Virus record (IMG/VR): IMGVR_UViG_3300033047_000189
Coordinates: 1 to 20,278 of that record
DNA from: a virus
Length of the DNA: 20,278 bases
Strand: one strand, 5' to 3'
Part shown: positions 120-6,256 of the stretch, piece by piece
Numbering within the stretch: the first letter of the stretch is position 1
Layout of the letters: each line of letters opens with the position of its first letter
Notes under the pieces: generated by a model
The model's database searches: none
Seen by the model: only the letters and a program-made list of their open reading frames with translations
What the model was told of the DNA's origin: nothing
Made by a program: the position numbers and the translations under genes

Positions 120-196
120 GCACTGGTAGCTCAGTTGGATAGAGTACCTGACTACGAATCAGGGGGTCGGGGGTTCGAATCCTCCCCAGTGCGCCA
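120..196 (+). tRNA. tRNA-Arg (anticodon ACG)
   Basis: A complete cloverleaf can be read. The acceptor arm GCACTGG (120-126) pairs with CCAGTGC (186-192), followed by discriminator G and an encoded CCA (194-196). The D arm contains AGCTCAGTTGGATAGAG, the anticodon stem CCTGA/TCAGG encloses the loop with ACG, and the T arm contains GGTTCGAATCC. ACG is read as ICG and decodes CGU/CGC/CGA arginine codons. This is host chromosomal sequence. The phage end lies within about 50-75 bases downstream, but the tRNA is intact and the element is a transposing phage, so the nearness is probably chance and not tRNA-site integration. Confidence 0.97.
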
Positions 197-272
197 TTTA
201 CTTTCAAAGCGATTTTATATTTTTCTGATATTTGCACTTGCTTGCTGCTGCCATAGTGGACTGGTATGTGGG

Positions 273-296
273 ACGAAAGAAAGCGTGGCCAAAGCC
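273..296 (+). promoter_or_regulatory. Putative transposase-binding end site L1
   Basis: ACGAAAGA, four variable bases, then GTGGCCAAAGCC. The same pattern recurs at 418-440 on this strand and at 371-393 on the other. The CGAAAG core resembles the CGAAA(A/G) end of the known MuA-binding consensus. The long gap to the second site and the short gap from second to third match the spacing of L1, L2 and L3 in Mu attL. That these sites bind the transposase is inferred. Confidence 0.6.
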
Positions 297-297
297 C

Positions 298-330
298 GGA
301 CTACTGCGGATGAGAGCGGACTACGGCGGA
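298..330 (+). repeat. 13-base direct repeat with 20-base period
   Basis: GGACTACTGCGGA (298-310) and GGACTACGGCGGA (318-330) differ at one base and are 20 bases apart, nearly two helical turns. They lie between putative end sites L1 and L2, where Mu binds the architectural protein HU. Function is unknown. Confidence 0.5.
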
Positions 331-370
331 CACCATTGAATAAAAAGGGTTTTTTCTTGATATTGTTTCC

Positions 371-393
371 AGCTTGGCCAACTTCTCTTTCGT
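371..393 (-). promoter_or_regulatory. Putative transposase-binding end site L2
   Basis: On the minus strand this reads ACGAAAGA, GAAG, TTGGCCAAGCT, matching the L1 and L3 sites. It faces L3 in inverted orientation around a central TGGCCA (402-407), so 371-440 forms one long interrupted dyad. Confidence 0.55.
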
Positions 394-417
394 TTCAAAA
401 ATGGCCAAAATACCCAA

Positions 418-440
418 ACGAAAGAGTCCGTGGCCAAGCC
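418..440 (+). promoter_or_regulatory. Putative transposase-binding end site L3
   Basis: ACGAAAGA, GTCC, GTGGCCAAGCC. It shares the pattern of L1 (273-296) and is the mirror partner of L2; AAACGAAAGAG is identical in both arms. Assignment as an end site is inferred from repetition, location and the CGAAAG core. Confidence 0.55.
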
Positions 441-813: not shown

Positions 814-1455
814 TTAATAGGTGTTTGCTGCCCACTTAATTTGCCCGATAATTCTAAAATTATCATCAGGCGGGTTTTCAATATAGAGATCATCATAAAA
901 GTCATTGTCTGATTTCACCTGTAATCGTCCATCGGGTAGTTTTTGGATACGTTTGATGTACAGAGTATCGTCGATGCTAAATGCGTATATACCATCATTT
1001 TCTATACGTTCCACCAAATGATTGACCAAAACCAATGAGCCATCGCGAATCGTTGGCTCCATGGAGTCGCCCCGCGCAACGATAACGGACAGGTGCCGAG
1101 CAGGAACCCCGATGTGTCTTTGAAGCCAGTCTTTCCGAAAAGCTATAGGACGTGCTTGCAGTTCTTGTTCTACCAGTGTGCCATTGCCCGCAGAGGCATT
1201 AACATCAAATCTGCGCACCAACTGCAAATCAGCGCCGCCTCCAAGTCCCGGTGTTCCTTTGCCTGTAATTAGCCAATTCAAATCACAGCCCGTTGATTCT
1301 TTAATTCGGATAATTGCATCAAGTTTCGGAGGGCTTCCACCGGACAGCCAACGTTTGAATGTGGGGATAGGTACCCCTGCGTCGGCAGCAAATTTATCTT
1401 GAGTGACCCCTGCGGGTATCAATAATTTCATTCTCTGTGCTAAAGTTGTTACCAT
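814..1455 (-). CDS. Phage repressor, XRE-type HTH with S24 peptidase domain
   Basis: 213 residues. Residues 1-60 form a helix-turn-helix domain (TQDKFAADAGVPIPTFKRWLSG), followed by a linker with ASAGNG near 87-92, which contains a possible Ala-Gly self-cleavage site. The C-terminal half is a LexA/CI-like S24 domain with the serine in ARGDSMEPTIRDG (Ser131) and the lysine in DTLYIKRIQ (Lys168), the usual catalytic pair. It is transcribed leftward, divergent from the ner-like gene, as c is in Mu. Mu's own repressor is not of S24 type, whereas D3112-like and many proteobacterial transposable phages use S24 repressors that respond to DNA damage. It should repress the early promoter through the AGTATC sites at 1467-1505. 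Function is confident; RecA-stimulated cleavage is inferred. Confidence 0.93.
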   Translation of the reverse strand: MVTTLAQRMKLLIPAGVTQDKFAADAGVPIPTFKRWLSGGSPPKLDAIIRIKESTGCDLNWLITGKGTPGLGGGADLQLVRRFDVNASAGNGTLVEQELQARPIAFRKDWLQRHIGVPARHLSVIVARGDSMEPTIRDGSLVLVNHLVERIENDGIYAFSIDDTLYIKRIQKLPDGRLQVKSDNDFYDDLYIENPPDDNFRIIGQIKWAANTY

Positions 1456-1586: not shown

Positions 1587-1919
1587 ATGAGTACCAATCA
1601 AAACACCGAAAGCGAGCATTGGGACAAAGAACGGGTTAAAGCCGAGCTTCGCCGCAAGGGCTTCACTCTAGCTTCACTAGCTCGCATCCACGGCAAGGGC
1701 CGCACTTACTTTTCCCTCGTGCTAATTTATCCATTACGCAAGGGTGAAAAGATTATCGCCGATATTCTCGGTGTGCATCCCTCCGAAATATGGCCCGCTC
1801 GCTACGGGTCAGACGGGCGTCCTCATCAAGGCCGCTTCCTTCCTGAAAACGATGGTCTTGCAAAAGAGGCCGCTCGTCAAGCCCGATGTTCTGCCGAAAA
1901 CACAGGAGATGCATCATGA
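1587..1919 (+). CDS. ner: Ner-like DNA-binding regulator
   Basis: 110 residues from the ATG at 1587, chosen because GGAAAAAGAGGA lies just upstream; an in-frame start at 1479 would place coding sequence across the operator. Residues 10-75 match the Ner/Nlp family of lambda-repressor-like HTH proteins: HWDKERVKAELRRKG, then TLASLARIHGKGRTYFS and the closing GVHPSEIWPARY. In Mu, Ner turns down both the early and repressor promoters when lytic growth starts. Position as first gene of the rightward operon, facing the repressor, fits this. The C-terminal 35 residues after PARYGSDGR are extra compared with Mu Ner and of unknown purpose. The stop overlaps the next start (ATGA). Confidence 0.88.
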   Translation: MSTNQNTESEHWDKERVKAELRRKGFTLASLARIHGKGRTYFSLVLIYPLRKGEKIIADILGVHPSEIWPARYGSDGRPHQGRFLPENDGLAKEAARQARCSAENTGDAS

Positions 1920-2197: not shown

Positions 2198-2349
2198 AAG
2201 AACCTGTGAAACAACGCGCCGAGGGCAAGCGTCATATGGGCGCAAGAAACCGTACTAACAAAAACCGTGACCGTGAATTGGCGTGGGAAATAGCTGACCG
2301 CCGCCACGACGTAAAATTACGACGGGCAGCGCGGAGGGCAAGTTCATGA
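2194..2349 (+). CDS. Small basic hypothetical protein
   Basis: 51 residues, very rich in arginine and lysine (RNRTNKNRDRELAWEIADRR). It starts at an ATG overlapping the preceding stop (ATGA at 2194) and ends at a TGA overlapping the ATG of the transposase N-terminal frame (2346). These chained four-base overlaps are the style of the whole early operon and are the main evidence that it is real. No family is recognised; the charge suggests nucleic-acid contact but that is inference. Confidence 0.6.
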   Translation: MKEPVKQRAEGKRHMGARNRTNKNRDRELAWEIADRRHDVKLRRAARRASS

Positions 2350-2690
2350 AGCCGTATATGACAGCGCAGGAAATTGTAGATTCGGGTCTATCTGGTTTGC
2401 CTAAAAAAGTTAATGGTCTAACCAGAATGGCCAAGCGAGAAAACTGGCCATCCCAACCACGGGAAGGTCGCGGCGGTGGCCGAGAATATGCCGTCCACGC
2501 ATTACCACAGGTCGCGCTTTCAGAGCTGGCTTTTCGGGCAGTTGAAATAGCCGCCGAAAAGCAAAAACAGGATGATGCACCGCTTGACCCATATGGCGCA
2601 CCAAAATCATCGGCCCGTGCATGTATCTTGAGAATTTCGAACCAGTTTATAGAAATCACGGGCTTGTCGCAGGGTGTTGCAAGCAAGTAG
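2346..2690 (+). CDS. Mu-type transposase, N-terminal DNA-binding part (frame interrupted)
   Basis: 114 residues. Residues 1-55 look like the Mu transposase N-terminal winged-helix domain: MTAQEIVDSGLSGLPKKVNGLTR, then a lysine/arginine-rich RENWPSQPREGRGGGREY and VHALPQVAL. In MuA this domain binds the internal enhancer. The frame stops at TAG 2688-2690, in the middle of the linker, right after ITGLSQGVASK. The expected continuation (VERYNEK... leading to KLSARSLRRW) is present in the frame one base back, from 2687. The start overlaps the preceding stop. Joined to the downstream frame, the protein would be about 714 residues, a normal length for these transposases, so this is one gene split by a frameshift or base-call error. 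Confidence 0.8.
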   Translation: MKPYMTAQEIVDSGLSGLPKKVNGLTRMAKRENWPSQPREGRGGGREYAVHALPQVALSELAFRAVEIAAEKQKQDDAPLDPYGAPKSSARACILRISNQFIEITGLSQGVASK

Positions 2691-4489
2691 AGCGCTATAA
2701 TGAGAAAACCCTGAATGTACTGCCTTGGATATTAAGATATTTTCCTAAACTTTCCGCTCGCTCTTTACGGCGCTGGAAACTGACTTCTGATAAGCACGGC
2801 ACTGACGCTTTGGTAGACAAACAACGCGGGCCAAAGGGCTCGTCTTTGTGGGATACTAACGCCGAACTTCGCGAGTACGTCATAGCCCAAATAGCGGGCA
2901 AGCCGCATGTAGTTTGCGAGTCGCTCCATAAAGGTGTGTTGGCAAATATTGAAAACCCGCCGTCCCTGCGTTCACTTCAAATGTATGTTAAAAAATACCG
3001 GAATGAAAATTCATCCGCACTGCTCTATGCGGCCAATCCTGATCAATGGAAATCACACCGCAGAGCAGCCTTTGGCTCGATGTCTGCAGACATACTCCGG
3101 CTCAATCAAAAATGGGAAATTGACGGCACTATTGCGGATGTTCAATGTCAGACTGACAACGGTACTTTAACCAGATATTCTCTGGTCGCTTTAATCGATG
3201 TTTTCTCGCGCCGCTCCAAGGTGTTGGTGACACTTCAACCAAGCGCCATCGCCACCGCAGCATGTTTGCGCACAGCCATTATTGATTGGGGCCTGCCTGA
3301 ACGCCTGAAGGCTGATAACGGTAAAGATTACACGGCGGCGCATGTTGAACGCATTGCGTCAGATTTAGGCTTTGCTCTTGACTATTGCACGCCGTTTTCA
3401 CCGGAGCAAAAACCACATGTTGAACGCTTCTTTGGCACATTGACGCGCGAGCTGTTTGAGGTGCTTCCCGGCTTCGTCGGTCACAGCGTTGCAGACCAGC
3501 AAGCCCTCCGCGCTCGCAAAAGTATGGGCCAGCGTTTTGGGGCATCAAAAACAGCGACATTTACCCTCACTGCAGCCGAGCTCCAAATCGTTATCAATGA
3601 CTGGTTAGAAAATACATATGAACTTCGGGTTCACAGCGGCATAAAAACGACACCATATCAGAAAGCTTTGGACGGTCGTGCGCGTAGAATCAAAGACGAA
3701 CGAGCGCTTGATTTATTGCTTGCTCCGGCCCCCGGTCAAGACGGTGTGCGTATGGTTCAGAAAAAAGGCGTTTCTGTCTTTAATCACTGGTACATTTCTG
3801 CCGAGCTTGGCGGTCTGGTTGGCTCGCGCGTTTCGGTTCGCATTGACCCTGAAAACGAAGCCCGTGTGGTTATATATTCTGCGGATACCAGAGAGTTTAT
3901 TTGCACCGCCGAAGACCCGACTATGACGGGTGCAGATATGCGCGATATCGCTCTTCGTGCAAGGCAAACGCAGACCCGCGAACTGAAGAAGTTACGCGAC
4001 CAACAAAAAGCGGCAACTGCCGTTCATAATCCCGACAAACTGGCCTCGGATATTTTAGGCCACGCTGCAGAAAAAGCCAGCAAGGTGGCAGCAATCCGCG
4101 CACCGTATGTAGATATTACCCCAGCATCTATAGAGCGTGAGCGCGAAGCGGCGGCGGCTCTGGACAACCCCAATCCAGAGCCCGCCCCGCTAACTGATGA
4201 ACAGGTGGCCAAGGCTAAGGTGAACCTTGTGGAGATTACTTACAAGCCAACCCCGTCATTTACAGTTTGGCCATCCGATCCATTGGAGCGCCCGCAGTTT
4301 GCTATGAGTGAACAGGGTGATTTTGATTTCTGGAAATGGGCAACTAATTTGCAAAAACTTGGCCTCCTCGACGACGAAACCACACTGGAGCTGGCAGAGT
4401 TGGAATCCGAACTACACTTTGCCCTCGTGCTTGAGAGCAAGGGCTTAAAGCCCAAAAATACATATAAAAAACTGGGAGTAATATTATGA
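2621..4489 (+). CDS. Mu-type DDE transposase, catalytic part (frame interrupted)
   Basis: Open from 2621, but homologous sequence begins near 2687, so the ATG at 2621 is unlikely to be a real start and has no ribosome site. The DDE triad is visible: Asp168 in EIDGT, Asp232 in KADNGKDY and Glu268 in PHVERFFGT, numbered from 2621, with 35 residues between the last two. Upstream, KLSARSLRRWK resembles the end-site-binding domain, and downstream is the beta-barrel region typical of MuA (VFNHWYISAELGGLVGSRVSV). The C-terminal 150 residues include a charged helical stretch, where MuA contacts MuB. It carries out strand transfer for integration and replicative transposition. The break at 2687-2690 separates it from the N-terminal frame. 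The stop overlaps the MuB-like start. Confidence 0.88.
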   Translation: MYLENFEPVYRNHGLVAGCCKQVERYNEKTLNVLPWILRYFPKLSARSLRRWKLTSDKHGTDALVDKQRGPKGSSLWDTNAELREYVIAQIAGKPHVVCESLHKGVLANIENPPSLRSLQMYVKKYRNENSSALLYAANPDQWKSHRRAAFGSMSADILRLNQKWEIDGTIADVQCQTDNGTLTRYSLVALIDVFSRRSKVLVTLQPSAIATAACLRTAIIDWGLPERLKADNGKDYTAAHVERIASDLGFALDYCTPFSPEQKPHVERFFGTLTRELFEVLPGFVGHSVADQQALRARKSMGQRFGASKTATFTLTAAELQIVINDWLENTYELRVHSGIKTTPYQKALDGRARRIKDERALDLLLAPAPGQDGVRMVQKKGVSVFNHWYISAELGGLVGSRVSVRIDPENEARVVIYSADTREFICTAEDPTMTGADMRDIALRARQTQTRELKKLRDQQKAATAVHNPDKLASDILGHAAEKASKVAAIRAPYVDITPASIEREREAAAALDNPNPEPAPLTDEQVAKAKVNLVEITYKPTPSFTVWPSDPLERPQFAMSEQGDFDFWKWATNLQKLGLLDDETTLELAELESELHFALVLESKGLKPKNTYKKLGVIL

Positions 4490-5226
4490 AGACAGGCGTT
4501 TATTGTGCTGACATAACCAATGTGCAGCGTTTCACAACGGGAGTTGAGACACTCGCTGGCCGTGGTGCCGAGGAAGCATCTTGGCTTTTGATTGAGGGTG
4601 ACCCCGGTCTAGGTAAAACCAGAGCTTTACAATGGTATTCTGTCCAGCAAAACGCGGTTCTCATCCGTGCAAAAGCAGGATGGACAATCCCTTGGATGCT
4701 TAAGGATATCTGTGAGGGTTTGGACTTACAGGCCGCACACAGCTCAACAAAAATGTTTGACCAAATTATCAATGAAGTGGTGATGAAAAACCCCATCTTG
4801 ATCATCGACGAAATTGACCATGCAGCTCGTAAAATCAAGACACTGGAAACCCTGCGCGACTTAACCGATATGTCGCAGCTCACCTTAATCGTGGCTGGTA
4901 TGAAGGGCATTCGTCAGAAGTTAAAGGCCCATAAACAGGTCTATAACAGGATTGCCGATGTGGTGGAGTTTCAGGCTGCCACAATAGAGGACGTACGCAC
5001 ATTGTGTAACCAACTGTCCGAGGTTGAAATAGCTGACGATTTGGTAGTTAGGATTCACGCAGAGACAGGCGGTATTTTTAGAGAAATTTTAAATTCTATT
5101 GCCCGCGTCGAACAGGCAAGCCGCCGCAACCGTGGCAGCACAATCACAGCAAAAATGGTCGAAGCCATACCACTTACCAATGATGGGCTTGCCCGAAAAA
5201 TTGGCAAAGGCCGGAGGGCCGCATAA
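4486..5226 (+). CDS. MuB-like AAA+ ATPase, transposition target selection
   Basis: 246 residues. Walker A GDPGLGKT at 38-45 and Walker B ILIIDEID at 104-111 are clear, followed by a sensor-like stretch LTLIVAGMKG and an arginine-rich C-terminal part (RVEQASRRNRGS). MuB binds target DNA as ATP-dependent filaments, delivers it to the transposase and gives target immunity. Length is below the 312 residues of Mu B, whose N-terminal HTH region is missing or very short here, as in many D3112-like phages. The start overlaps the transposase stop (ATGA) and the stop overlaps the next start (TAATG), so it is translationally coupled on both sides. Confidence 0.9.
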   Translation: MKTGVYCADITNVQRFTTGVETLAGRGAEEASWLLIEGDPGLGKTRALQWYSVQQNAVLIRAKAGWTIPWMLKDICEGLDLQAAHSSTKMFDQIINEVVMKNPILIIDEIDHAARKIKTLETLRDLTDMSQLTLIVAGMKGIRQKLKAHKQVYNRIADVVEFQAATIEDVRTLCNQLSEVEIADDLVVRIHAETGGIFREILNSIARVEQASRRNRGSTITAKMVEAIPLTNDGLARKIGKGRRAA

Positions 5227-5879: not shown

Positions 5880-6256
5880 GAGGTACGTTGACATTGACAT
5901 TCAGAACCAAGGCCGAGTGTGCTTATGGTTCAGATTGCCCGAAGTGGATACTGGCGCTTGCTGATGCCTGCGACGCTGCAGGGTTTGTAAAACCCGTCGC
6001 TGCTCGCATAGGATACTCCCACAGTGCAGTGAGCGCAGTAATTAACCGTTCCTATACGGGTCGCACGGAACGCGTCGAGGAGGCCGTAGTATCCTGTCTC
6101 ATGAGCGGCAAAGTCCAATGCCCGGTATTAAGTGAGATTACATCGGAGCGCTGCCACAATATTCAGAGCCGCAAGACGCTGCGAGCAACCGACCCGTCTG
6201 CAGTGAAGCTCTGGCGGGCCTGTAATAGCACCTGCCCAAATAAGCGGGGCGGCTAA
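5876..6256 (+). CDS. HTH protein with cysteine-rich C terminus, putative regulator
   Basis: 126 residues. A helix-turn-helix is apparent at about 37-62 (KPVAARIGYSHSAVSAVINRSYTGRTERVEE). The C-terminal half has four spaced cysteines, in VQCPVLSEI, ERCHNIQ, WRACNST and STCPN, which could bind zinc or another metal. Proteins with this combination, including the CPVL.EI and C-H pattern, are common in the early region of Mu-like prophages and are usually called transcriptional regulators. A further Cys pair, CAYGSDC, lies near the N terminus. It overlaps its neighbours by ATGA and TAATG. Specific targets are unknown. Confidence 0.75.
   Translation: MRGTLTLTFRTKAECAYGSDCPKWILALADACDAAGFVKPVAARIGYSHSAVSAVINRSYTGRTERVEEAVVSCLMSGKVQCPVLSEITSERCHNIQSRKTLRATDPSAVKLWRACNSTCPNKRGG

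Follow-up and report, generated by a model that had tools for sequence, protein, structure and literature searches.

We analysed a viral fragment of 20,278 bp from IMG/VR (the window), whose right phage end and right copy of the target duplication lie off the record. An intact host tRNA-Arg(ACG) gene stands near its start. It is followed by DNA that carries only spurious open reading frames and is otherwise gene-free, and then by the genes of a Mu-like phage (Table 1). The genes begin with the cI repressor and Ner, continue with MuA, which occupies two overlapping frames, and MuB, and go on through HTH regulators, Gam and GemA to lysozyme, Mu gp27, terminase, a Mu-type portal, a Mu F-like protein and a Mu-like I protease. 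Pfam and PHROG both recognize an rve core with a Mu C-terminal domain and, beside it, a MuB ATPase. The closest named phages by MuA identity are HS6 (37%), MuM16-1 (32%) and RC1/RS1 (30%).

Table 1. Features at the left of the window (positions in the window)
Feature	Position	Strand	Basis or remark
Host tRNA-Arg(ACG), intact	120..196	+	ARAGORN; 3' end 70 bp from phage left end
Predicted left copy of 5-bp target duplication, TGGTA	262..266		Inferred from duplications of seven relatives
Phage left terminus TGTGGGACGAAAGAAAGCGTGGCCAAAG (terminal repeat)	267..294	+	Ungapped alignment with solved left ends of G001 and G110
End site L1	273..294	+	Phage bp 7-28; motif scan
Four-copy array, 10-bp period: CCGGACTACT GCGGATGAGA GCGGACTACG GCGGACACCA	296..335	+	Position-weight scan
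End site L2, inverted	372..393	-	Phage bp 106-127; motif scan
End site L3	418..439	+	Phage bp 152-173; motif scan
cI-type repressor (Phage_CI_repr and Peptidase_S24)	814..1455	-	Pfam/PHROG
Ner-like regulator (HTH_35)	1587..1919	+	Pfam
MuA-like transposase, N-terminal part (HTH_Tnp_Mu_1)	2346..2690	+	Frame differs from rest of MuA
MuA-like transposase, catalytic and C-terminal part (rve, Mu-transpos_C)	2621..4489	+	Pfam, PHROG
MuB-like AAA+ target-capture ATPase (AAA_22, weak TniB)	4486..5226	+	Pfam, PHROG
Conserved protein after MuB, predicted tandem winged helix	5226..5879	+	Structure model

Relatives have muA as a single open frame, but in the window a -1 frame change near 2610-2640 divides the gene, and we saw no clear slippery heptamer there. 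The split may reflect a mutation, an assembly error or recoding. Because of it, the copy of the phage in the window may be defective or mis-assembled. The protein encoded after MuB was considered as a TniQ-like protein and rejected: its model (pLDDT 78, moderate confidence) contains two winged helices and had no PDB match at E below 0.001. None of the ten window proteins scanned matched TniQ.

The left end and its sites

The motif ACGAAAGA-N4-KTGGCCAA occurs in the window three times without a mismatch, at 273-292 (+), 374-393 (-) and 418-437 (+). The sequence-only reading had placed these copies correctly to within 2-3 bases, and also correctly in gene-free DNA between a host tRNA and the repressor operon. 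With up to three mismatches allowed the window holds seven matches, compared with 0.47 expected, and seven were reached in none of 100 shuffles; after the three perfect copies, the next-best matches have three mismatches and lie elsewhere in the window. In their 22-bp form the copies had no equally good internal match in any of 300 shuffles. L2 and L3 together make a 24-bp inverted pair.

As the window lacks a right end, the phage ends were solved in relatives. These were reached through the window's split MuA gene, by a scan of genome contigs and then by profile searches; a search of IMG/VR proteins with the window's MuA or MuB alone returned no relatives. The contig scan gave two closer relatives, one in a Robiginitomaculum MAG (L047) and one in a Caulobacterales MAG (L048). 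Scanning for the exact site of the window as a pattern turned up 38 contigs, which were rejected as relatives: none had the array and only three had a related portal, so we took them as chance matches.

We searched for TG...CA end pairs flanked by five identical bases, and a clear top pair emerged in seven genomes (Table 2). The expectation of a five-base target duplication outside the ends was thus borne out exactly in seven relatives. Of 30 positions, 20-22 are identical between the left and right termini of each solved phage. G001 and G110 sit at other insertion sites, and their left ends align ungapped with the window, starting from the TGT at 267 and running on through the terminal repeat and the GGAC array to the ATTGAA behind it. 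This alignment makes base 267 the left end of the phage, in keeping with the earlier claim that the end lies here; for the window itself, the left terminus is the part of the TG...CA pair that is seen. No target consensus is visible in TGGTA, CAAAC, GCAAT, AAAAC, ATTGC, CATGT and CTGAT.

With terminus bp 7-28 as the query, sites were found in G001 at bp 7, 123 and 154 of the left end and bp 7 of the right, in G110 at bp 7, 123 and 153, and in G385 at bp 7, 100, 132 and 156. Further right-end sites lie at bp 30 in G518 and G850 and at bp 29 in G510. The inverted copies predicted for the right end therefore have equivalents at the right ends of relatives, and multiple inverted sites are present at the left end of the window and at both ends of the relatives. 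The site words differ by subclade (TGGCCAA, CTGCCAAA, GGTGTCC and GCGCCACATGGTTT). Because every subclade has its own word, the pair of transposase and site evolves quickly. Judged from sequence, the three copies are transposase sites of the end type, and they mark the left end of a Mu-like phage.

The phage and its relatives share with Mu the TG...CA termini, the 5-bp duplication, the MuA and MuB genes and the cI/Ner layout; as in Mu, bp 30-70 of the left end, and of that end alone, carry a 10-bp phased array. The proposed likeness to the L1-L2-L3 spacing also stands, since the three left sites lie at nearly equal distances in the two phages: the copies begin at phage bp 7, 106 and 152, and CGAAA in Mu starts at bp 22, 127 and 167. 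The sites themselves differ. In the window CGAAAG forms the outer half (bp 8) and TGGCCAA the inner half, whereas Mu has CGAAA at the inner end of each site, and L2 of the window is inverted. Equating the CGAAAG core with the CGAAA(A/G) of the MuA site consequently fails, and the suggestion of a distinct site family is upheld: the best motif match in the ends of Mu has five mismatches, with none below five. Shewanella phage MuM16-1 and Pseudoalteromonas phage HS6 have the same gene order (cI-Ner-MuA-MuB-HTH-HTH), and a phased array, though a weak one, lies immediately inside their left ends. They differ in MuA (30-37% identity) and fall outside the clade described below. Virions of MuM16-1 contain variable host DNA, from random sites (PMC8541194).

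tRNA genes beside the prophages

All seven clade prophages that could be resolved, the window included, lie 23-70 bp from a tRNA gene, at six tRNA loci, and six of the seven are on its 3' side (Table 2). Mu is the textbook random transposon, and its near-random choice of targets differs from the strong tRNA adjacency in the window's clade. The 132,891 bases of host flank that we examined contain six tRNA genes, each of which adjoins a prophage.

Table 2. Target duplications (TG...CA end pairs in the seven relatives) and neighbouring tRNA genes
Prophage	5-bp duplication	tRNA	Distance	Position of tRNA
Window	TGGTA (predicted)	tRNA-Arg(ACG)	70 bp	tRNA 3' side, phage left end
G001	CAAAC	tRNA-Leu(TAA)	41 bp	tRNA 3' side, before phage
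G496	AAAAC	tRNA-Gln(CTG)	23 bp	tRNA 3' side, before phage
G385	ATTGC	tRNA-Arg(CCT)	45 bp	Beyond right end, tRNA 3' end toward phage
G518	CATGT	tRNA-Arg(CCT)	55 bp	Beyond right end, tRNA 3' end toward phage
G850	CTGAT	tRNA-Thr(TGT)	50 bp	Beyond right end, tRNA 3' end toward phage
G110	GCAAT	tRNA-Leu(CAA)	68 bp	tRNA 5' side
G510	GTGAC

G385 and G518 occupy the same tRNA-Arg(CCT) locus in two species, with different duplications, and were counted as one, which leaves six independent tRNA loci. Because the hypothesis arose from the window and G001, the fair test is the other four loci, and all four were positive. If a genome of 3.2 Mb has about 45 tRNA genes, as we assumed, the chance that an insertion falls within 75 bp of one is about 0.2%. 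Even at 2.3%, the value assumed for insertion within 75 bp when only intergenic DNA is a target, the chance of six out of six is about 1e-10. Distance and orientation vary, and G110 lies on the 5' side of its tRNA, so the docking geometry is not fixed as it is in Tn7. Pattern scans for terminal inverted repeats added few usable flanks.

At the tRNA-Arg(CCT) locus both prophages (L123 and L124 for G385 and G518) are inserted in a remnant of about 110 bp from the right end of an older relative. This site was thus used repeatedly.

In a transposase tree of 69 sequences the seven tRNA-adjoining phages fall in one group of 11 (SH-aLRT 97), and the tRNA label changes once on the tree, compared with 5.5 times in shuffles. 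The other members of the group are L047 and L059 (without host flank) and L060 and G855 (left flank only). L144, whose MuA is 71% identical to that of G385, was added later and stands outside the tree. The left flanks of G855, L060 and L144, the only side on record for each, have no tRNA gene. P4-type integrase genes are typical of islands at the 3' ends of tRNA genes, and a gene that we assigned to this family by eye from its sequence starts about 75 bp from L144.

Mappable prophages outside the clade mostly lack a neighbouring tRNA gene. G510 has none on either side, the insertion of L084/L178 is within a gene, and no tRNA was found in left flanks of 865 to 11,621 bp from eight others (L061, L079, L080, L087, L091, L146, L148 and G745). 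At eight loci of tRNA-less prophages, an Rfam scan found no other RNA beside the phage; its only hit was a tRNA inside the muA gene of L060. This is an intact tRNA-Arg(UCU) gene at 5933-6008 (74.8 bits) that lies in frame and adds about 26 residues to the linker. The other clade members have no such addition there.

In one phage outside the clade, L159 (20000-21764; also L173), the end that carries the array follows a tRNA-Ser(CGA) gene at a distance of about 74 bp on its downstream side, and the transposase gene points toward that end. The tRNA trait may therefore extend beyond the clade.

Target choice and its alternatives

We propose that the three copies are the left-end sites of a MuA-type transposase, in a temperate Mu-like phage that lies just downstream of a tRNA gene because its clade selects targets beside such genes. 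We give this reading a probability of roughly 78%. Counting against it are the small number of loci (six), the varying distance and orientation, the failure to find a selector gene or target motif, the tRNA-free left flanks of G855, L060 and L144, and the frame-split muA of the window. It can also be supposed that insertion is near random, as in Mu, and that prophages survive in the harmless 3' flanks of tRNA genes while others are purged. Many elements use such flanks as neutral sites, and Mu inserts widely in Escherichia coli, leaders and tails of pre-tRNAs included (PMC7350765). Selection of this kind, however, should affect all Mu-like prophages, and it does not account for G510, which has no tRNA, or for L084/L178, inside a gene; nor does confining insertions to intergenic DNA make six out of six probable. 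We therefore regard survival as unlikely. A little less likely still is that tRNA adjacency is secondary to a preference for terminators, hairpins or the remnants of older phages and islands at tRNA hot spots. The remnant under G385 and G518 would fit this idea, as would the palindromic repeat that adjoins G510 and the hot spots of some Pseudomonas transposable phages near BIME hairpins (PMC5977238). Against it, BLAST found no phage remnant at the sites of G001, G110, G496 and G850, and the bias is not shared by phages outside the clade.

That the three copies are repressor operators seems to us highly improbable. They do lie upstream of the repressor operon, and short repeated sites are common as phage operators, but the repressor is transcribed away from them, with a divergent promoter region at about 1456-1586. 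Moreover, the equivalent sites of relatives recur at the right end, some 36 kb away, and there too at bp 7 from the terminus.

Selection of tRNA-proximal targets by a MuA/MuB system, which we infer from these sequences, could work as follows. MuA would bind L1-L3 and the right-end sites and synapse the ends, and the MuB-like AAA+ ATPase would mark the target. A clade-specific bias would then move the MuB mark to the 3' flank of a tRNA gene, leaving the tRNA intact. The cI, Ner, MuA, MuB and two HTH proteins are common to all phages compared, save for an occasional missing match, and the first 12.5 kb contain no extra gene, as a target selector might be, that is both universal in the clade and unique to it. 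The bias therefore most likely resides in MuA and MuB, unless these respond to some host factor or state of the DNA that marks tRNA genes. We consider it an even call whether this alphaproteobacterial clade of Mu-like phages went from near-random transposition to selection of tRNA flanks with the selector inside MuA/MuB and no separate TniQ-type protein. In E. coli, Mu spares the mature tRNA sequence but inserts into the leader and the tail of the pre-tRNA, in a MuB-dependent manner (PMC7350765). That behaviour could have been the starting point for tRNA targeting.

Other elements also insert beside tRNA genes. The Tn7-like transposons CyCAST I-D and CAST I-B2 likewise combine a DDE transposase with an AAA+ ATPase, and CyCAST inserts about 30-33 nt downstream of tRNA-Leu via TnsD (PMC10293859). 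Such elements rely on a TnsD/TniQ selector and insert at a fixed distance, whereas in the window's clade no such selector was found and the distance varies. The eukaryotic retrotransposons Ty1, Ty3 and TRE5-A find a safe harbour by integrating in a window next to tRNA genes (PMC5911963, PMC5006619), but their machinery is unrelated and RNA polymerase III factors recruit them. Our literature search, which covered papers outside subscription, found no report of tRNA-directed Mu-like phages. If our proposal is correct, the clade would show how an AAA+ target-capture protein can gain specificity, as an intermediate between Mu/IS21 and Tn7/CAST, and it might offer a compact tool for placing DNA next to tRNA genes.

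A phased array inside the left end

Just inside L1, in the spacer between L1 and L2, the window carries a GGAY array. Packaging of Mu DNA starts from the left end, where Groenen and van de Putte reportedly mapped the pac site, which we take to be at about bp 32-58. From its sequence and place, the array is probably the packaging (pac) site. It would be read by the small terminase subunit, with one terminase contact per helical turn. Alternatively, it may be a bending site for assembly of the transpososome. As a pac site shared with Mu, it would supply a sequence test for where these phages start packaging and for the way in which their terminase reads DNA. The mapping of Mu pac is cited in PMC5418689.

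A weight matrix detects the array in about 20 phages, some tens of bases inward of the left end, and at none of the right ends examined. Mu and distant Mu-like phages thus share a 10-bp phased GGGAT/GGACT array that is confined to the left end. When the window was left out of the matrix, the top hit in the first 1.5 kb of Mu (NC_000929) was bp 31-70, a score reached by one of 2000 dinucleotide shuffles in Mu and likewise in the window.
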